In this document: piece after piece, positions 6,643-18,577 of the stretch
How positions within the stretch are numbered: position 1 is the stretch's first letter
How the letters are laid out: each line of letters begins with the position of its first letter
From: Abyssibacter profundi
GTDB lineage: Bacteria; Pseudomonadota; Gammaproteobacteria; Nevskiales; OUC007
Direction: 5' to 3'
Assembly (NCBI RefSeq): GCF_003151135.1
Contig: NZ_QEQK01000002.1
Location: 1-64,000 of the forward strand
DNA: 64,000 nt
Made by a program: the position numbers and the translations under genes
Notes under the pieces: model-generated
Told to the model about the DNA's origin: nothing
What the model saw: the letters and a program-made list of their open reading frames with translations, nothing else
Databases searched by the model: none

Positions 6643-6972
6643 TCAGGACGCCAGCGTCTGGACCCGCTGCGGGAACTCCTTGGCCATCGGGTCCTTGAGC
6701 GCAATGCCGCGCTCACGGTTCTCCACCGTCGACCACAGTAGGGTGGGCAGGTCCGGGTAGCGGGCCACAATCTGCTCGACCAGCTCGTCGCCGCGGGTCC
6801 CCGGCATGTGATAGTCGGAGATGACCAACGTGATGCGTTCGGCTTCAGTGTCGAGTATTTCCAGTGCGTCGTCGGCGCTGCTGGCCGTAATCACCGGAAT
6901 GCCGGCTGAGCCCAGCACGATTTCGCAGATGAATCGCACCGATTCTTCGTCATCGACCACCAACACACTCAT
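6643..6972 (-). CDS. Stand-alone receiver-domain protein
   Basis: A 109-residue receiver domain and nothing else. The acidic pocket is VVDDEE near the start, the phospho-acceptor is D53 in VISDYHMP, and the switch residue region LLWST follows; the usual conserved lysine is probably the one in AKEFPQ. With no output domain, it must act by protein contact. Its ATG overlaps the stop of the KaiC-like gene (ATGA, 6969-6972), so the two are translationally coupled and probably work together. No kinase lies beside it. Confidence 0.85.
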   Translation of the reverse strand: MSVLVVDDEESVRFICEIVLGSAGIPVITASSADDALEILDTEAERITLVISDYHMPGTRGDELVEQIVARYPDLPTLLWSTVENRERGIALKDPMAKEFPQRVQTLAS

Positions 6973-8414
6973 TGCTGACGATGACCACTGAGCGCCCCCC
7001 AGCCCAGCAGGCCTTCGACGGACGTGAGTTCCTTGGTGTCCGCGACCATGCCGGATTCGGTGACGTCGAAGCGGATCATGCCCTTGGCGTGTGCGGAATC
7101 CCGCATCTTCAGCACGAGCAAGGCCCGACGGATTTCCGAGTGATCAGCCATGTAGCGCATGACGATGACATTTTGGAACAGGTGACTGAGTGCATCCACG
7201 CTATGTTGCGAGCCCATGGCGGTGGTTTCCAGCGTGAACAACACCGAGGCGCCCGACGAGCGCGCGTGCTGCGCCAGCGACCAGATCAGGCCGGGGTAGC
7301 GTTGTTGCTGTTTGGCAAGCGTTGCCAGTTCGCCCATGGAATCGAAGACGAAGCGGTCCGGCTTCGCTGCCAGATCCTGCGAAATCTGGTTTGCGAGCCG
7401 GTCGGTAACCAGTTCGACGATGGGCTCCTCGCGGATGACCAGCCGTCCCGATGCCAGCCCCTCCTCGATCTCGCTCCAGCCAAACGCCCGGGCCTTGTCC
7501 CGAATGGCTGATGCCGTCTCTTCCAGTGCCACGTAAACGCATCGCTCACCCTGGCGCAGGCCCTCGCGGACGAACTGCAGGCTCATGACGGTTTTGCCGG
7601 CGCCGGAGGGGCCAGTCACCAGCGTCACATCGCCACGAGGCAGGCCACCGCCTGCGAGTTGGTCGATGCCGGGCACGCCAACGGAGACCCGTCCCGATGT
7701 CTGGTCCGTGCTGCGGTCCACGACGCTTTCGATGCGGGGATAGACACAGGCACCGGACTCGGTGATTTCGTAGGCATGTCGGCCAGCGAGATAGCGGCGG
7801 CCACGCATCTTGTGGACCCGCAGGCTGCGCTGATCCTGCCAGCCGCTGTGCTCCAGACTGAGTTCGATAATGGCATCGGCCACTGCAAACTCGGCGCCTT
7901 TGGTCAGGTCGTCTCCGACGTACTCGCCCACCAGAATGAGGACCGTGTCGCTAAAGGACAGACGGCTGACCAGTCGGTGCATATAGGTGCGAAAAGAAGC
8001 GGCGTCACCGTGGTCGCGTAGGGCCTTGGCGGAGTCGATCACCAGCACGGCGGGGCGCTCCTGCAAAGCCATGCGGGTGATCTGATCGACGATCGAGCCG
8101 ATGGCGTCGCCGTCATCCGGCGCCTTGTCCAGAAACTCCGAGACATCCTGGTAACGCACGCGGTTGTCCAGGGCTGCCTTGTCGAAGAAGGTGAAGCCTT
8201 CCAGATGTCGCACCAGCTTGACCTGCGATTCAGACAGGCTGGTGACGTACACAGCCGGCGCCTGCTGGGTCGCACTGGCGAACGCGATTTGCTGCGCGAG
8301 GACGGTCTTGCCGGTGCCGGGGGCACCCGCGATGACCATGGCGCTGCCAGCGGCCAAGCCGCCTCCGAGCACCCGGTCCAGATTCGCGTTGCCGGTGGTA
8401 TGGGTTGTTGTCAT
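6969..8414 (-). CDS. KaiC-like double RecA ATPase
   Basis: A 481-residue protein with two RecA/KaiC domains. The first has Walker A GAPGTGKT (30-37), Walker B PAVLVIDSAKAL and the HKMRGRRY signature around 201-208; the second has GPSGAGKT (268-275) and FVFDSMGEL. This is the KaiC/RadA superfamily; outside cyanobacteria such genes have roles in stress or signalling rather than proven circadian timing, and no KaiA or KaiB is nearby. AGGAG precedes the ATG by six bases. It is co-translated with the receiver protein downstream, a common KaiC pairing with two-component parts. Confidence 0.85.
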   Translation of the reverse strand: MTTTHTTGNANLDRVLGGGLAAGSAMVIAGAPGTGKTVLAQQIAFASATQQAPAVYVTSLSESQVKLVRHLEGFTFFDKAALDNRVRYQDVSEFLDKAPDDGDAIGSIVDQITRMALQERPAVLVIDSAKALRDHGDAASFRTYMHRLVSRLSFSDTVLILVGEYVGDDLTKGAEFAVADAIIELSLEHSGWQDQRSLRVHKMRGRRYLAGRHAYEITESGACVYPRIESVVDRSTDQTSGRVSVGVPGIDQLAGGGLPRGDVTLVTGPSGAGKTVMSLQFVREGLRQGERCVYVALEETASAIRDKARAFGWSEIEEGLASGRLVIREEPIVELVTDRLANQISQDLAAKPDRFVFDSMGELATLAKQQQRYPGLIWSLAQHARSSGASVLFTLETTAMGSQHSVDALSHLFQNVIVMRYMADHSEIRRALLVLKMRDSAHAKGMIRFDVTESGMVADTKELTSVEGLLGWGALSGHRQQ

Positions 8415-10702: not shown

Positions 10703-10757
10703 TGTCCGGGCCTGTCCGGTGGACGGTCAAAACTGTCCGGACACCTGTCCGCGGACA
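10703..10757 (+). promoter_or_regulatory. Probable enhancer (UAS) for the NtrC-family regulator
   Basis: Within 55 bp lie the perfect palindromes TGTCCGGACA (10734-10743) and TGTCCGCGGACA (10746-10757), plus two further TGTCCGG half-sites (10703 and 10713), the second forming an imperfect dyad with GGACG (10721-10725). They sit about 70-120 bp upstream of a sigma54 promoter, the position expected for an NtrC-type activator. Confidence 0.7.
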
Positions 10758-10823
10758 CTTTTCAGTGAGTGGGGAAGGTTAAAATAATAAATAAAAACAG
10801 CAAGTTACAAATTTTCGAAAAGT

Positions 10824-10837
10824 GGTATGCAGGTTGC
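10824..10837 (+). promoter_or_regulatory. Sigma54 (-24/-12) promoter of the exporter operon
   Basis: TGGTATG-N4-TTGC with the invariant GG (10824-10825) and GC (10836-10837) exactly ten bases apart matches the sigma54 consensus. The segment between it and the palindromes is strongly AT-rich, as expected for a bent, possibly IHF-assisted, loop. The first operon gene starts 35 bp downstream. Confidence 0.75.
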
Positions 10838-10872
10838 GCTAAGGAAAGCACAGTCCAACCCGAGAGAAGATC

Positions 10873-11298
10873 ATGCGAGCCACACTGACCACGCTTTTCC
10901 TCTGCAGCGCCCTGTTGACGACCCCCGTTGGAGCCAGCTTCCAGTCGGGTACCTCGCCAGACCAGGCCACGCCGACGACCATCGATTACACCGCCGAACT
11001 GAACCGCAACCCGGCTCAGCAACGCTACCGCGAGCGGATGGCCGAGACCCTGCAGCATCGTGCTACGCGCCAGATCGCTGGGCAGACAGCCGAGCTATTG
11101 GCCGGCCTGGGCGGCGTTGCCCAGCCCGTGCCGGTGGCCCTGACGGTGGAGCCCGCTCCGTTGTGGACACCGGTTCCGGTCGCGCTGCGCAGCCAGTGCG
11201 CGTACCCGTCGCAGGACCCGGCTGCCGCAATCTGGTCGGTGTTGCAGACCCCGCTCCGGCCGCAGCCCTGTGATGCAGGCGAATGCGTTTATCTCTGA
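10873..11298 (+). CDS. Small exported protein, first gene of exporter operon
   Basis: A 141-residue protein with a clear signal peptide (LTTLFLCSALLTTPVGA, cleavage near residue 21). The mature part has a helical, charged segment (RYRERMAETLQHRATRQIAGQTAELL) and a Pro-rich middle, with four cysteines, three in the last 35 residues (C109, C132, C137), which could form a disulfide in the periplasm. I do not recognise the family. Being first behind the sigma54 promoter and overlapping or touching the fusion-protein gene, it is likely co-produced with the exporter and might assist or modulate it. Confidence 0.7.
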   Translation: MRATLTTLFLCSALLTTPVGASFQSGTSPDQATPTTIDYTAELNRNPAQQRYRERMAETLQHRATRQIAGQTAELLAGLGGVAQPVPVALTVEPAPLWTPVPVALRSQCAYPSQDPAAAIWSVLQTPLRPQPCDAGECVYL

Positions 11299-11309
11299 GC
11301 ACGGCAGCC

Positions 11310-12599
11310 ATGGTTTCGACAGTCGACAGCCTGCGTGGCACCAGTGGTCAGGACCGGATGCTGGCACCCCGGCGGCGGGGCGCAGGCCGCATCGCAGCCC
11401 TCCTGGTGGGGTTGATGCTGCTCGGCCTGGCCGCTTGGTTGCTGCCGCGACTCTGGACACTATGGTCCGCCGAGCAGTCGGTTTCACTCAGCCGGCTGTC
11501 AGTCGCCGCGGCAGAGCGGGGGCGTTTTGAACGGGACATTGCTGCAGATGGCCGGGTGGTTGCGGCCGTCAGTCCCACCTTGCATGCCCCGGCCGCCGGC
11601 GTGGTCCGGCTGGATGTTCAGGCCGGCGATGCCGTGGCGGTCGATACGGTTCTCGGGGTGGTGGACAGCCCCGAACTGCGTAGCGAACTGGCGCGGGAGA
11701 AAGCCCGCTTGCAAGCCCTGACGGCCGATTACGGGCGCGCGCGCCTGGCGGTACGCCAGCAGGAATTACGTGCTGAGGAGGCGTTGCAGCAGGCCCGGGT
11801 AGATCGGGACGCCGCCGCCACCGAGCATGCGCGCATGGCCCGCGCCTTCGAGCTGGGCGTCATGCCTGAGATTGAGCGTATGCGCACAGAGGCGGCGCTC
11901 AAAAAAGCTGAATTCGCGCTCCACCGTGCTCGCTCGGACCGGGATCTGCAGCGCGAGGGGCAGGATCTGGATGTCGAGGCCAAGCGCTTGGCTCGTGACG
12001 CCCAGGGCTTGATTGTTGAGGAACTGCAACGCCAGGTGGATTTGCTGACGCTGCGCTCGCCCGTGGCCGGTCAGGTGGGGCAGCTGCTGGTCAGTGATCG
12101 CGGCTTTGCGGCCAAAGATGCGCCGCTGATGACGGTGGTGGACCTCAGCGCGCTGGAAGTGGAACTGGATGTTCCGGAAGCCTTTGCGCGGGATTTGCTG
12201 CCGGGAATGCCCGCGACGATTCGCGGCAACCAGCAGCAGTTCGACGGCGAGGTCAGCGCCGTGTCGCCAGAGGTGGTCCGGGGGCGGGTGACCGCGCGGG
12301 TGCGGTTCCTCGGTTCCGTGCCCGAGGGCTTACGACAGAATCAGCGTTTGTCGGTTCGCGTGCTACTGGATGCCCGCGATGACGTGTTAACCGTGCCCAG
12401 AGGGCCGTTTCTCGAGGCCGGCGGTGGGCGCGTGGCCTATGTGGTGAACGGCCAGGTGGCCGAGCGCCGAATCATTCGTACCGGTGCGGTCAGTCTTGAT
12501 CGTGTCGAACTACTGGACGGAGTCACCGAGGGCGAGCGCCTGGTGATCTCCGGAACCGATTCTTTTGACGATGCCCAGCGCGTCGTGATCAGCCGATAA
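11310..12599 (+). CDS. Membrane-fusion protein (HlyD/MacA-type) of ABC exporter
   Basis: About 429 residues. One N-terminal transmembrane anchor (GRIAALLVGLMLLGLAAWLL), a lipoyl-type half (APAAGVVRLDVQAGDAV), a long Ala/Arg/Glu-rich coiled-coil hairpin, then the second lipoyl half (LRSPVAGQVGQLLVSDRG) and a beta-barrel domain. This is the periplasmic adaptor linking inner-membrane ABC permeases to an outer-membrane channel. The frame is open from 11283, overlapping the preceding gene; ATG codons at 11310 and 11358 are also possible and none has a strong ribosome-binding site. No outer-membrane factor gene is in the operon, so a TolC-like protein would come from elsewhere. Confidence 0.9.
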   Translation: MVSTVDSLRGTSGQDRMLAPRRRGAGRIAALLVGLMLLGLAAWLLPRLWTLWSAEQSVSLSRLSVAAAERGRFERDIAADGRVVAAVSPTLHAPAAGVVRLDVQAGDAVAVDTVLGVVDSPELRSELAREKARLQALTADYGRARLAVRQQELRAEEALQQARVDRDAAATEHARMARAFELGVMPEIERMRTEAALKKAEFALHRARSDRDLQREGQDLDVEAKRLARDAQGLIVEELQRQVDLLTLRSPVAGQVGQLLVSDRGFAAKDAPLMTVVDLSALEVELDVPEAFARDLLPGMPATIRGNQQQFDGEVSAVSPEVVRGRVTARVRFLGSVPEGLRQNQRLSVRVLLDARDDVLTVPRGPFLEAGGGRVAYVVNGQVAERRIIRTGAVSLDRVELLDGVTEGERLVISGTDSFDDAQRVVISR

Positions 12600-12609
12600 G
12601 GTGGATGCC

Positions 12610-13314
12610 ATGCTCAAGATGACCCATTTATCCAAGGCCTTCCGCACCGAGATTGTCGAGACCTTCGCACTGCGCGATTTCTCCATCGAAGTGCAGCAGG
12701 GGGAGTTTGTGGCCGTGACCGGACCGTCCGGTTCCGGCAAGACCACGTTCCTGAACATTGCCGGTTTGCTGGAAACGGCCAGCAACGGCCGCTACGAACT
12801 CGATGGTCAGGATGTCAGTGCACTGAACGACCATGCGCGTTCGAAGATTCGGAACGAAAAAATCGGATTCATCTTTCAGGCGTTCAACCTGATTCCCGAT
12901 CTCAACGTGTTCGACAACGTGGATGTGCCGCTGCGCTACCGCGGCCTTCGTGCTGGAGAACGCCGGCGTCGCATCGAAGACGCCCTGGAGCGGGTCGGCC
13001 TGTCTGCCCGCATGAAGCACTACCCGGCGGAGTTGTCCGGCGGGCAGCAGCAGCGGGTGGCCATTGCCCGTGCCCTGGCGGGGCGGCCGCGTCTGCTGCT
13101 GGCCGACGAGCCCACGGGCAATCTTGACACGCAAATGGCACGCGCGGTCATGGAATTGATCGAGGATGTCCATCGCGACGGCGCGACCATCGTCATGGTC
13201 ACGCATGACCCCGAGCTGGCGGCGCGCACCCAGCGCAATGTCCATATTGTCGATGGGCAGGTGGTGGACATCGATGCCGCAGAGCCGCGGTTTGCGGCTG
13301 TGGCCGGAGGCTGA
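12610..13314 (+). CDS. ABC exporter ATPase (LolD/MacB type)
   Basis: A 234-residue ATP-binding subunit with Walker A GPSGSGKT (38-45), Q-loop IFQAFNLIPDL, signature LSGGQQQR, Walker B LLLADEPTGNLD and the switch H in MVTHDPELA. The Q-loop and EPTGNLD sequences mark the MacB/LolD/FtsE group that works with FtsX-type permeases. I take ATG 12610, preceded by AAGGTGG, rather than the in-frame GTG at 12601. It powers the two permeases encoded immediately after it. Confidence 0.95.
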   Translation: MLKMTHLSKAFRTEIVETFALRDFSIEVQQGEFVAVTGPSGSGKTTFLNIAGLLETASNGRYELDGQDVSALNDHARSKIRNEKIGFIFQAFNLIPDLNVFDNVDVPLRYRGLRAGERRRRIEDALERVGLSARMKHYPAELSGGQQQRVAIARALAGRPRLLLADEPTGNLDTQMARAVMELIEDVHRDGATIVMVTHDPELAARTQRNVHIVDGQVVDIDAAEPRFAAVAGG

Positions 13315-13319
13315 CCCCG

Positions 13320-14627
13320 GTGCTCGCCTATTATTTTCGTCTCGCCCTGCGCAGCCTGCGTCGCAATCCGGCACTGACCGTGCTCATGGTGGTGGCTATC
13401 GGCATCGGTATTGGCGCCAGCGTGACCACCATGACGGTCATGCATGTGCTGTCCGGTGACCCGATGCCGGAGAAAAGCGATCGATTGTTCTACCCGCGTG
13501 TCGATCCGGAAGACGCGATGTTCTACGAGCCGGGGGCCGAGCCGCCGCACCAGCTGACCTATGTCGATGCCATGAATCTGCTGCGAGACGGTCGTGGCCG
13601 GCATCAGGCAGTGATGAGCGGCGGCGGATCGGTGGTCGTGCCAGAGGCGCCCGATCAGGAACCGGTGCTCATCGAGACCCGGTACACCACCGCAGATTTT
13701 TTCGCCTTGTTCGACGTGCCTTTCCTCCACGGAGCGGGCTGGACGGCAGAGCAGGACGAGGCCCGCGACCAGGTGGTGGTGCTGTCGCGTTCGCTGAACG
13801 AGCGCGTGTTTGGTGGCGCCAACAGTGTTGGCGAGTCCATCCGTCTGGGCGATCACCGTTTCCGCGTGATCGGGGTGATCGATCAGTGGCGGCCCAACCC
13901 GCATTTCTATGATTTGACGACCGGCCCCTACGCCGATTCCGAGGACGCCTTTCTGCCCTTGGAAACCTCGATTGACCTGCAGATGGCGCGCAGCGGCGAT
14001 ATGTCCTGTTTTGGCGATGAACGCCAATCGCCCGAGCAGCAGCAGCGATCTGGCGTCTGCATGTGGTTGCAGTACTGGGTGGAACTGGATGCCCCCGAGG
14101 ATCGGGTCGCCTACCGGCAGTACCTGGAGCGTTACAGCCAGGCCCAGCGGGAAGCGGGGCGGTTCGAACGGCCCGATAACGTGCGCCTACACAGCCTGAC
14201 CGAATGGCTGGAGGTGCGCGAGGTGGTGCCCGATGACGTGCGCCTGCAGTTCTGGGTGGCGCTGGGCTTTCTGGTGGTCTGCATCGTCAACACCATCGGC
14301 TTGATGCTGGCCAAGTTCTTACGCCGGTCCGGTGAGATCGGCGTTCGGCGCGCATTGGGCGCCACCCGGCGATCGGTGTTTCTCCAGTACCTGATGGAGG
14401 CCGCGATGATCGGCCTGGTGGGCGCGGTGCTGGGGGTGTTGCTGGCACTGGCCGGCCTGGCTGCGGTGCGGCTCCAACCGGTGGATTACGCGGCGTTTGC
14501 ACGGCTGGATCTCAACATGTTGGCGCTGGCCGTGGGGCTGTCTGTGCTGGCCAGCCTCCTGGCCGGTTTGCTGCCCGCGTGGCAGGCCTGTCGCATTGCC
14601 CCGGCCCTGCAGTTGAAGAGCGAATAA
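13320..14627 (+). CDS. FtsX/MacB-type permease, first of pair
   Basis: A 435-residue permease: N-terminal transmembrane helix (ALTVLMVVAIGIGIGASVTTM), a large periplasmic MacB_PCD-like domain (about 50-305), then three C-terminal helices with the FtsX motif GEIGVRRALGATRRSVFLQ between helices. It starts with GTG, with GGAGG nine bases upstream. It lacks a fused ATPase, so together with the next gene it forms a heterodimeric version of the MacB transmembrane unit. Such exporters with NtrC-like regulators often handle peptide antibiotics or lipids; the substrate here is unknown. Confidence 0.92.
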   Translation: MLAYYFRLALRSLRRNPALTVLMVVAIGIGIGASVTTMTVMHVLSGDPMPEKSDRLFYPRVDPEDAMFYEPGAEPPHQLTYVDAMNLLRDGRGRHQAVMSGGGSVVVPEAPDQEPVLIETRYTTADFFALFDVPFLHGAGWTAEQDEARDQVVVLSRSLNERVFGGANSVGESIRLGDHRFRVIGVIDQWRPNPHFYDLTTGPYADSEDAFLPLETSIDLQMARSGDMSCFGDERQSPEQQQRSGVCMWLQYWVELDAPEDRVAYRQYLERYSQAQREAGRFERPDNVRLHSLTEWLEVREVVPDDVRLQFWVALGFLVVCIVNTIGLMLAKFLRRSGEIGVRRALGATRRSVFLQYLMEAAMIGLVGAVLGVLLALAGLAAVRLQPVDYAAFARLDLNMLALAVGLSVLASLLAGLLPAWQACRIAPALQLKSE

Positions 14628-14638
14628 GGACGCCTGTT

Positions 14639-15844
14639 ATGGATATTGCACCCGTACTGAAAGCGCTGCGGCAACAGAAAACGGCAGCGCTGCTCATTGC
14701 CTTCGAAATCGCACTGGCCTGCGCCATTATCTGCAACGCCCTGTTCGTCATGGTGGCGCGTACCGAGCGCATGCAGGTCGACAGCGGGGTGGTGGAGTCC
14801 GAGCTGCTCCGCATCCGCTCGGCCACATTGGATGACCAGGCAGAGCGCCCGGCGCGCGTGGGCGAGGACCTGGCGGCCCTGCGTGAAGTCGCCGGCGTGG
14901 TGGATGTGGCCGCTGTGCAGCAGGTGCCGTTCGGAAATTCTTCCTGGAATACCAGTTTGGCCACCGAACGGGATGGACGCGGCATCACCAGTTCCACGAA
15001 TTATTTCGACTCCGGCAATCTGGTGAAGACGCTGGGACTCACGCTGATCGCCGGCCGCGATTTTCTGCCCGAGGAGTACATCGAGTTCGAGGCGCTGTAC
15101 CGCGAAGAAGCGCGCACCAACGGGGTGGCCATCATTACCCAGACGCTGGCCGAGCGCTTGTGGCCCGGTGAGTCGGCCCTGGGCAAGCAGTTCTATCCCG
15201 ATGCTGACCCGGTCCGGGTAATCGGCGTGGTTGATCGTCTCATCCGTCCCTCGTTCCGCAATCTCGACAACGCCGACAGCAGCACGATTTACCCGGTGCG
15301 TCACGCGCCGGGTGCCCAGTATGTGGTGCGTTTTCGAGGTCGCAGTGCCGAGGCCGTGCTGCAGGATGCCGAGGCCGCGCTGCGGGCGGTGCATCCGGGG
15401 CGTCTGACACTGAGCGCGGAGTCCTTCCCCCAGCTGCGCGAGCGCTTCTTCCGCGGTGACCGTGTCATGACCTTACTGCTGGCGGGCGTGGTGGTGGCGC
15501 TGCTCATCGTCACCGCGCTGGGCATTGTCGGGCTTGCGAGTTTCTGGGTGCAGCGTCGGCGGCGACAGATCGGGGTGCGCCGGGCCTTGGGGGCCACGCG
15601 TGGTGCCATCCTCCGCTACTTTCAGTTGGAGAACTTTTTGATCGTGACCGCCGGCGTGGCCGTGGGCATGTTTGCCGCCTATGCGGTCAACGCCTGGCTC
15701 ATGCTGCACTATGCATTACCCAGATTGCCGCTGAGCTACCTGCCGGCTGGTGCGATTGGCCTCTGGCTGCTGGGGCAGGTTGCCGTGCTACCGCCTGCAT
15801 TGCGGGCGATGCGCGTGCCGCCGGCGCTGGCGACACGCGCATGA
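14639..15844 (+). CDS. FtsX/MacB-type permease, second of pair
   Basis: A 401-residue partner of the preceding permease, with the same plan: an N-terminal helix (AALLIAFEIALACAIICNALF), a periplasmic domain of about 250 residues, and C-terminal helices around the motif QIGVRRALGATRGAILR. ATG 14639 follows AAGGA by nine bases; the frame is open upstream inside the previous gene but that stretch does not match the family. The two permeases differ enough in their periplasmic domains to suggest separate contacts within the complex. Confidence 0.92.
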   Translation: MDIAPVLKALRQQKTAALLIAFEIALACAIICNALFVMVARTERMQVDSGVVESELLRIRSATLDDQAERPARVGEDLAALREVAGVVDVAAVQQVPFGNSSWNTSLATERDGRGITSSTNYFDSGNLVKTLGLTLIAGRDFLPEEYIEFEALYREEARTNGVAIITQTLAERLWPGESALGKQFYPDADPVRVIGVVDRLIRPSFRNLDNADSSTIYPVRHAPGAQYVVRFRGRSAEAVLQDAEAALRAVHPGRLTLSAESFPQLRERFFRGDRVMTLLLAGVVVALLIVTALGIVGLASFWVQRRRRQIGVRRALGATRGAILRYFQLENFLIVTAGVAVGMFAAYAVNAWLMLHYALPRLPLSYLPAGAIGLWLLGQVAVLPPALRAMRVPPALATRA

Positions 15845-15902
15845 GTCGGGCGGTCCGAACCAATCGGCTGCAAGCCGATCGACCACAACGGGTTGGAGAC
15901 CC

Positions 15903-17243
15903 ATGTCCACAGTACTGATCATTGACGATAACCCGGCCGTTCGGGAGGCGCTGTCGCTGCTGCTGTCGTTGCGCGATATCGATGTGCTCACCGCGGATGG
16001 TCCGGAATCCGGGCTGGCGCTGCTGAACGAGCAGGAAGTGGATTTGGTGATCCAGGACATGAACTTCACCGAAGACACGACGTCGGGCGAGGAGGGCGAG
16101 CAGCTGTTTCGACAGATTCGCCAGCGATTCGCCGACCTGCCGGTCATCCTGCTCACGGCCTGGACCCATCTGGAGGCGGCGGTCGAGCTGGTGAAGAACG
16201 GGGCGGCTGACTACGTGGCCAAGCCCTGGGACGATCACAAGCTGGGCACGACGGTCGCCAACTTGCTGGAACTGTCAGAGACCGCCCGCGAGGTCTCCCG
16301 TGTTCGACGTGAGCGCCAGCGGCGACGCAGCGCATTGGCGGCCCGCTACGACTTGCGGGGCGTGGTCTACGGCTCGGATGCCACCGAGCGCGTGCTGGAA
16401 CTGGCCTGTCAGGTGGCCCGGTCGGATTTGCCGGTATTGATCACCGGCCCCAATGGCGCTGGCAAGGAGCGGATTGCGGACATCGTCCACGCCAATTCAT
16501 CGGTGAAGTCGGGGCCGTTTATCACCGTGAACTGTGGCGCATTGCCCGGTGAGCTGATTGAGGCCGAGCTATTCGGCGCCGAGGCGGGGGCCTACACCGG
16601 CGCCAATCGCGCGCGGCCGGGGCGGTTCGAGGTGGCCGATGGCGGCACCTTGTTCCTCGATGAGATCGGCAACCTGCCGCTATCCGGACAGGTGAAGCTG
16701 CTGCGGGTGCTGGAGACCGGACAGTTCGAGCGCCTGGGCTCATCGCGAACCTTAAAGACGCGGGTGCGCGTGCTCAGCGCCACCAACGCTGATTTGCCGG
16801 CAATGATTGCCGACGGCAGTTTTCGTGAGGACCTGTATTACCGACTCAATGTCATGGAGCTGCGGCTGCCGCCCCTGGCCGAACGACGGGATGACATTCT
16901 GCCGCTGGCCGAGCATTTTCTTGGCGGCGAGGTGGGGCTGTCCGACGATGCACGCCGGGCGCTGGAGCAGCATCGCTGGCCGGGCAACGTGCGTGAGCTA
17001 CGCAATGCCATGGAGCGGGCGCGATTGCTCTGTCAGGACGGCGAGATTCGCCGCGAAGACCTGAATCTGCCGAGCACCGCGGCGGCCGAAGCGCATCGCA
17101 ATCTGGATGAGCCGGATGCGGAGACCATCCGCGCTGCGCTGGAGGCAGCGGGGGGAACGGTCAGTCGTGCGGCGCGGGCGCTGGGGCTGTCGCGTCAGGC
17201 CCTCTACCGACGCATGCAGCGATTCGAGCTGTCTGCCGATTGA
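15903..17243 (+). CDS. NtrC-family sigma54-dependent response regulator
   Basis: A 446-residue regulator: receiver domain with D52 in VIQDMNF and K107 in VAKPWDD; AAA+ domain with Walker A GPNGAGKE, the sigma54-contact loop as GAYTGA (normally GAFTGA), and LFLDEIGNLPL; and a Fis-type HTH at the end (GGTVSRAARALGLSRQALYRRM). Phe-to-Tyr in the loop is a known tolerated variant. GGAG precedes the ATG. It lies inside the exporter operon just before its kinase, and the operon has a sigma54 promoter and upstream palindromes, so positive autoregulation is likely. Confidence 0.95.
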   Translation: MSTVLIIDDNPAVREALSLLLSLRDIDVLTADGPESGLALLNEQEVDLVIQDMNFTEDTTSGEEGEQLFRQIRQRFADLPVILLTAWTHLEAAVELVKNGAADYVAKPWDDHKLGTTVANLLELSETAREVSRVRRERQRRRSALAARYDLRGVVYGSDATERVLELACQVARSDLPVLITGPNGAGKERIADIVHANSSVKSGPFITVNCGALPGELIEAELFGAEAGAYTGANRARPGRFEVADGGTLFLDEIGNLPLSGQVKLLRVLETGQFERLGSSRTLKTRVRVLSATNADLPAMIADGSFREDLYYRLNVMELRLPPLAERRDDILPLAEHFLGGEVGLSDDARRALEQHRWPGNVRELRNAMERARLLCQDGEIRREDLNLPSTAAAEAHRNLDEPDAETIRAALEAAGGTVSRAARALGLSRQALYRRMQRFELSAD

Positions 17244-17251
17244 GCCGGCCC

Positions 17252-18577
17252 ATGACCCCACATTGGCGGCCCAGCCTGGGCTTGAAGCTCGCGGCCTTGT
17301 TGCTGCTGTTGTTCTCGGCCGGCGTGGGTGTCGGTGCCTGGCTGTGGCAGCGTTGGGATGATCCGCTGTTGGTGGGCCTGGTCGCCGTGTTACTCGGGCT
17401 GCTGCCCTGTTTGTTGATTGCCCGACGCGCCACACGGCGCGTGCGACGCTTGTTGCGGGCGCTAGAAGGGGCGGTGGCCAGTTACCGTGATGGCGATTTC
17501 AGCATCTCGACCAACGATGCCGGTGGCGATGAACTTTCCGCCCTGGTGGAACGCCACAATGAACTCGGCCGCACCCTACGCGAGCAACGCCAGCATCTGG
17601 TCCAGCGTGAGCTGCTGCTGGACACGGTGGTGCAGAACACGCCTGTGGCGCTGGTCCTGACGGATTCGGCCGATCGTGTGGCCTATGCCAACATGGCCGC
17701 GCGGCAATTATTCAACGCCGGAAAACGGCTGGGTGGCCTGGGGTTTGCCGAGTTAATCGAGACCCTGCCTGCGGTGGTTGGGGAGGCCGTGGCCTCGGGC
17801 GAGGATTCGCTGTTCAGCCTGGAGCTGGAGGGCGGTGAGGAGACGTTTCACATCTCCCAACGCGGGTTCCGACTCCAGGGTCGGCCACATCGTCTGTATC
17901 TGTTCCGGCGCATGACCCGCGAACTGTCGCGCCAGGAGGTCGCCACCTGGAAGAAGGTGATCCGGGTGCTGAGCCACGAACTCAACAACTCGCTGGCTCC
18001 GATTTCGTCGATGGCGCATTCCGGCGCCGAATTGACCCGGCGCGGGGAGACCGAGGCCACGCTTAAAGTCTTTGCGTCCATCGGCGAGCGGGCACGCCAT
18101 CTACACGGTTTTGTCGACGGTTACGCCCGATTCGCCAAGCTACCCATGCCCCGTCTGGAGTCGGTCTCCGTGGCCGATCTGGTCGACACGTTGGCCGCGC
18201 AGGTGACGTTCACCGCGGCCCGGCCACTGCCCAGTTTGCCGTTGCGGGTGGACCGGGCACAGTTCGAGCAGGTTTTGATCAATCTGCTGAAAAACGCTCA
18301 CGAGGCCGGCAGCGCGCCCGAGGCGGTCGAGCTGCGGGTGACCCGCGTTGCCGCCTCGGTCTGTATCGATATTCTGGATCGCGGCAGTGGTATGAGCGAA
18401 TCCGTGCTGGCTAATGCCTTGCTGCCGTTTTATTCCACCAAACACAGCGGGACGGGCCTTGGCCTGGCCCTGACCCGGGAGATCGTGGAGGCCCACGGTG
18501 GGCGGTTGCAGCTGTCGAATCGGCAGAGCGGCGGGCTGCGGGTGCGGATCCTGCTACCGATGAATCCGGGGAGCTAG
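17252..18577 (+). CDS. Sensor histidine kinase, partner of the NtrC-family regulator
   Basis: About 441 residues. Two adjacent N-terminal transmembrane helices ([20 protein letters not shown] and the next hydrophobic run) leave almost no periplasmic loop, so it probably senses within the membrane or through the exporter. A HAMP-like segment, a PAS domain ([22 protein letters not shown]), the phospho-acceptor in [12 protein letters not shown], and an ATPase domain ending [18 protein letters not shown] follow. This is the NtrY-like group. A TTG at 17240 overlapping the regulator stop (TTGA) is the alternative start. Its stop overlaps that of the convergent SDR gene in a shared CTAG. Confidence 0.93.

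Follow-up and report, generated by a model that had tools for sequence, protein, structure and literature searches.

A phased TGTCC array before a sigma-54 promoter as the predicted enhancer of a probably autoregulated exporter operon in Abyssibacter profundi

INTRODUCTION

In 2025, sigma-54 promoters were found to be enriched in Gammaproteobacteria at the FtsX-like permeases of peptide transport (COG0577), a link for which that study claims the first evidence (PMC12316311). The locus described here agrees with that prediction in combining the same exporter class with a sigma-54 promoter in Gammaproteobacteria; for the COG0577 class, the accessible sections of the study describe neither an enhancer motif nor a cognate activator, and mention neither a regulon nor small peptides. 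The same sections mention that the two-component system ZraSR can autoregulate (PMC12316311). In BceRS-BceAB, the kinase reads the transporter and the two-component system forms a positive loop (PMC10314905).

We use the term window for the whole stretch of 64,000 nucleotides of A. profundi DNA that was analysed. In this window, an exporter operon encoding its own NtrC-type regulator and histidine kinase lies downstream of a candidate sigma-54 promoter and enhancer, and we compared this arrangement within the genome, in orthologous operons and with the systems described so far.

RESULTS

A preliminary description of this DNA had proposed an exact GG-N10-GC element, two perfect palindromes with extra half-sites 70-120 bp upstream, an AT-rich bridge between them, and an operon carrying a GAYTGA regulator and a kinase. 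Direct reading and domain searches recovered all of these elements, with a measured distance of 66-120 bp between array and promoter. The features are as follows, distances being counted from the TGG of the promoter.

10703-10707, plus strand: TGTCC half-site at -120, read from the sequence
10713-10717, plus strand: TGTCC half-site at -110
10734-10743, no strand assigned: perfect palindrome TGTCCGGACA at -89 (TGTCC at 10734, GGACA at 10739)
10746-10757, no strand assigned: perfect palindrome TGTCCGCGGACA at -77 (TGTCC at 10746, GGACA at 10753)
10777-10822, no strand assigned: AT-rich bridge between enhancer and promoter, 78% AT against 37% in the window
10823-10838, plus strand: sigma-54 promoter TGGTATGCAGGTTGCG (GG at 10824-10825, GC at 10836-10837)
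10873-11298, plus strand: first gene of the operon, 141-residue protein of no known family with an apparent signal peptide and the C-terminus CDAGECVYL
11283-12599, plus strand: HlyD/MacA-like periplasmic adaptor (Pfam PF13437, NCBIfam TIGR01730)
12601-13314, plus strand: MacB/LolD/DarD-like ABC ATPase (PF00005)
13320-14627, plus strand: MacB_PCD and FtsX permease 1 (PF12704, PF02687)
14639-15844, plus strand: MacB_PCD and FtsX permease 2 (PF12704, PF02687)
15900-17243, plus strand: NtrC-type response regulator with REC, AAA+ (PF00158, with GAYTGA) and Fis HTH domains, from domain search
17240-18577, plus strand: histidine kinase with two transmembrane (TM) helices, a loop of ~7 residues, HAMP and HATPase_c, from domain search and hydropathy

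The exact GG-N10-GC lies inside TGGTATGCAGGTTGCG, which is near the consensus TGGCACG-N4-TTGCW and conforms to TGGCAC-N5-TTGCW, and a transcript start is predicted at about 10848-10851 (near 10849). In the upstream region, the half-site at 10713 forms the near-palindrome TGTCC-GGT-GGACG with positions 10721-10725, the TGTCCGGACA element also occurs in Luteibacter orthologues, and TGTCCGCGGACA, kept in relatives at 76-81 bp from the TGG, is the most conserved element of the putative enhancer. A perfect IHF consensus was found in a few orthologues and is absent from the window's bridge, so that an IHF site was dropped as a feature of the bridge.

As for the encoded proteins, the adaptor reading frame, taken from 11283, overlaps the end of the first gene at 11298; its true start is likely the ATG at 11310, judging from the MIRDTSAQD starts of relatives. 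The 141-residue protein evolves fast: its counterpart in Abyssibacter L040, whose regulator is 83% identical to that of the window, is very diverged and ends in CEAHDCVYL, and the two have a C-terminal CxxxxCVYL in common. One to four MacB/FtsX permease pairs lie upstream of the regulator in Dyella, Luteibacter, Rhodanobacter and relatives (L043-L119). According to hydropathy, most of the orthologues compared share the kinase loop of ~7 residues found in the window (Abyssibacter, Solimonas, Dokdonella, Tahibacter and relatives further away), and longer loops are present in Rhodanobacteraceae (Luteibacter, Dyella). Elsewhere in the window we noted, by eye only, a KaiC-like protein with two ATPase domains (6969-8414, minus strand) and, as the next gene, a stand-alone receiver protein (6643-6972).

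The conservation of the upstream region was assessed in 33 operon heads gathered through the regulator sequence and without selection for the motif. They comprise 26 heads from the window and 25 genome loci (Abyssibacter, Solimonas, Luteibacter, Dyella, Tahibacter, Dokdonella, Pinirhizobacter and others) and seven more distant heads from a class-wide sample, with regulator identities of 57-70%. A sigma-54-like promoter is present in 33/33 heads and precedes the reference start of the first gene by 39-84 bp; its -12 element is weakest (ATGT) in the two most distant ones (L273 and L274). Moreover, the 160 bp above the promoter hold two or more half-sites in each of the 33 (mean 4.67), whereas random windows of the same loci contain 0.26 on average and reach two or more in 2.7% of cases. 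Such half-sites, conserved in orthologues, agree with what is expected of an upstream activating sequence (roughly 80-150 bp upstream). Near the regulators of L107, L117 and L119 (~70% identical) we found no equivalent TGTCC promoter array; in these loci the gap between regulator and kinase is ~1.7 kb and exporter genes were not found in place. We take them as a rearranged or differently controlled branch.

The geometry of the array was analysed in 83 sites selected by motif. TGTCCGCGGAC is present in 76 of them, and in 71 of these 76 its first T lies 76-81 bp upstream of the TGG, within a search range of 57-87; a minority spacing of 68-70 bp is about one turn closer, with 4/76 at 68-69. TGTCC half-sites cluster at about -79 and, as additional copies, at about -90, -100 and -111, with a repeat of ~11 bp, and the half-sites of the window (-120, -110, -89, -77) follow this pattern. 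When the unselected heads were reduced to one for each genus, none of 5000 random placements attained the observed ~11-bp periodicity. Periodicity and fixed distance together suggest an enhancer whose half-sites line up along one face of the helix as an array, in which the inverted copy nearest the promoter (TGTCCGCGGAC) is nearly invariant. The preliminary description had placed the target in the two palindromes; the conserved element is a phased array ending in TGTCCGCGGAC at about -79 from the -24 box rather than a pair of equal palindromes.

We then asked how specific these elements are within the genome. TGTCC-N0-3-GGACA is found at two places in the 64-kb window, where 0.27 would be expected, and 3 of 100 shuffles reach two. 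The palindrome alone was rejected as a genome-wide marker, since it is not enriched there (19 occurrences against 16 for the reversed pattern); TGTCCGCGGACA is unique in the 3.74-Mb genome. As the preliminary description had proposed, the genome was scanned for the paired motif near -24/-12 elements. The combined motif (TGTCC-N0-3-GGAC, 46-76 bases, TGGYNNG-N4-TTGC) has exactly one match, the window site, which is expected of an autoregulated exporter operon. A looser pattern requiring GGACA only gave 28 matches against 13 for its control; judged by eye, most of them resembled ordinary coding sequence, and the pattern was discarded. Among these matches the window site alone carries the palindrome of the combined motif. 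A strict sigma-54 control outside operon heads yielded one other site, too few for comparison. What goes far beyond chance is the pairing of the palindrome with a sigma-54 promoter at constant spacing, which is kept from genome to genome. The genome contains rpoN in the form of two PF04552 genes (C5:219128-219604 and C24:8076-8540), the second with a further sigma-54 activator domain ~1 kb away (C24:6680-7174).

Among 50 genomes carrying the regulator, the combined motif has 97 matches against 2 for the reversed control (totals summed from the table of matches). An even sample of 369 genomes of the class has TGTCCGCGGAC with a promoter in four, all among the eight that have the regulator. Three of these four contain only the operon's own site, and since most matches are linked to the operon itself, this co-occurrence is partly trivial linkage. 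The independent argument, in trans, comes from the unlinked sites, those of Rhodanobacteraceae and one in the distant genome G370 that precedes a DUF885 protein (Pfam). Genomes of Rhodanobacteraceae commonly hold two to five combined-motif sites. The 83 sites fall into 27 exporter operon heads, 34 small-peptide genes, 5 S33-like alpha/beta hydrolases, 2 TolC-type channels and 15 others; among the last are operons that begin with a permease (L179, L224, L226-L229), a protein resembling serine carboxypeptidases (L222), a hydrolase of the beta-lactamase fold (L248) and some likely chance matches (L176, L217, L233). Genes following the small peptides include, according to Pfam, an NlpC/P60 enzyme (L180), a beta-lactamase-fold hydrolase (L214) and an M3 peptidase (L241). 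A channel, pump parts and enzymes degrading peptides or the cell wall make a coherent envelope-defence regulon, and the same regulator family appears to drive it in Rhodanobacteraceae (TolC, extra permeases, hydrolases/peptidases and tiny TM peptides). The specific DNA target that had been proposed for the regulator family is conserved down to 57% regulator identity, and in relatives it extends beyond one operon to a small regulon.

The small-peptide family has 41 members of 27-73 residues, seven of them second tandem copies (L173-L247, for example L197, L206 and L234). Its conserved part, MK(F/Y/H/L)E..-LR-LFVACLLVCGL-LGAM, typically MKFExxMLRxLFVACLLVCGLxLGAM, is a single N-terminal TM segment; a tail ending in CALPPDGVVCPR is often present, and some members have nothing but the TM segment. 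Searches of Pfam and NCBIfam gave no family above cut-off for these peptides. Their genes often lie upstream of a TrmL-like methyltransferase gene. No small peptide stands at a combined motif in the window's genome, where the operon begins with the 141-residue protein.

Is the array read by the operon's own regulator? This protein has the REC, PF00158 AAA+ and Fis HTH architecture of NtrC-type activators, and its GAFTGA loop, in the GAYTGA variant, is conserved in the alignment. In 22 aligned regulators, the HTH recognition segment (window residues 424-440) has a mean identity to the window of 81% (minimum 71%), against 60% for the lid and 55% for the linker, and the helix SRQ(A/S)(L/F)YRR is kept in 22/22 orthologues, which range from 57% to 100% identity. 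Direct recognition would lead one to expect that reading head and target are both conserved, and we consider it highly probable that the TGTCC array and the sigma-54 promoter are used by the operon's own regulator. Promoter and enhancer might also be real with another activator bound to the array and the operon's regulator acting elsewhere, the genome having eight strong PF00158 sigma-54 activators, seven besides the operon's own. This seems very unlikely, because array and regulator travel together across families, the DNA-contacting helix of the operon's regulator is conserved, and the remaining activators are ~40% identical over their full length and not encoded in the operon. We give hardly any credence to the idea that the motifs are fortuitous or decayed and that a sigma-70 promoter drives the operon: the lack of genome-wide enrichment of the palindrome alone would suit it, but every one of the 33 unselected heads shows a conservation and spacing that speak against it.

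DISCUSSION

The arrangement most likely corresponds to an autoregulated exporter operon with a positive loop. The kinase, whose two TM helices are joined by hardly any periplasmic loop, would phosphorylate the neighbouring NtrC-type regulator, which would bind the TGTCC array in its helical phasing, with TGTCCGCGGACA, ~77 bp before the -24 box, as the anchor. A DNA loop formed across the AT-rich bridge would allow the AAA+/GAYTGA domain to open RNA polymerase-sigma54 at 10823-10838, and a transcript from ~10849 through adaptor, ATPase, two permeases, regulator and kinase would close the loop. We infer regulator-DNA binding, phosphorelay, looping, start site, substrate and positive feedback from the sequence and its comparison. 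In the window's genome, the own operon is the only target found. The content of the regulon in Rhodanobacteraceae points to a role of the module in clearing toxic peptides or lipids from the envelope, and we put the chances of such a peptide or envelope detoxification role at about even.

How the system senses its signal could follow the Bce principle, in which a near-sensorless kinase reads the cycling of an FtsX-type transporter and responds to the demand for peptide-antibiotic transport. The kinase with two TM helices and a loop of ~7 residues, the co-encoded FtsX-type transporter, a positive loop as in BceRS-BceAB (PMC10314905) and the peptidases and TolC of the regulon all favour this, but the permeases are MacB-type, the regulator is NtrC-type rather than OmpR-type and the kinase loops are longer in Rhodanobacteraceae; we regard it as a real possibility while leaning somewhat against it. 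Such sensing adds a mechanism to the autoregulated exporter operon and does not exclude it. More doubtful is the full version, a demand-sensing sigma-54 resistance module in which the sensorless kinase reads the MacB-type exporter and a phased TGTCC regulon includes miniproteins as subunits or modulators of pump or kinase. The exporter might instead secrete a self-made peptide, the 141-residue product here and the small MKFE peptides in other genomes, in the way DarBCD exports darobactin. The best NCBIfam match of the ATPase is DarD, below cut-off, and the regulon contains small peptides with C-terminal Cys pairs. However, the conserved part of the peptides is a 27-residue TM segment to which several members add nothing, no maturation enzymes were seen, and the hydrolases of the regulon fit detoxification better, all of which makes a biosynthetic exporter improbable.

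A literature search found no paper on the enhancer motif, cognate regulator, regulon or peptides, which is weak evidence as subscription journals lay mostly outside its scope; queries for the TGTCC motif returned one unrelated human paper, and those for combinations of sigma-54, MacB and two-component systems no account of such a circuit. To the preliminary description, the analysis adds the phasing of the array, its conservation across several families and the regulon that it marks in relatives, and it suggests that the loop probably belongs to a peptide or envelope detoxification module. The regulator family, which occurs in several gammaproteobacterial families and has no described target, would gain a concrete DNA target and a regulon, and the general prediction of 2025 that sigma-54 controls FtsX-type peptide exporters would become a circuit whose sites and partners are named and can be tested. 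Moreover, a family of tiny membrane peptides that neither Pfam nor NCBIfam contains comes to light, and its co-regulation hints at a function in export or sensing.

Among known systems, ZraSR and AtoSC have the domain order and the sigma-54 mechanism in common with the window's pair, but the window proteins score below the equivalog cut-offs, and target DNA and regulon differ. With MacAB-TolC, the module shares an HlyD adaptor, an ABC ATPase and MacB_PCD/FtsX permeases, and TolC in the regulon of relatives; unlike MacAB-TolC, it has ATPase and permeases in separate genes (219 bits against a cut-off of 966 for the MacB equivalog with fused ATPase), one to four permease pairs and its own sigma-54 circuit. 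In the darobactin exporter DarBCD, DarD is the best named relative of the ATPase, whereas the DarB model describes one long permease and the window has two shorter ones; the scores for the DarB, DarC and DarD equivalogs of NCBIfam are 19.6, 31.1 and 252.7 bits against cut-offs of 700, 450 and 375. BceB-type permeases have 10 TM segments. The Bce modules share with the window an FtsX-type ABC transporter and a kinase whose two TM helices enclose hardly any sensor loop, the latter seen here by hydropathy. The window differs from them in its Gram-negative host, its MacB-type exporter with periplasmic adaptor, its two MacB_PCD/FtsX permeases in place of a single BceB-type one, its NtrC-type instead of OmpR-type regulator and its sigma-54 promoter. 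By analogy, the module may therefore work like the Bce modules without being a member of them.
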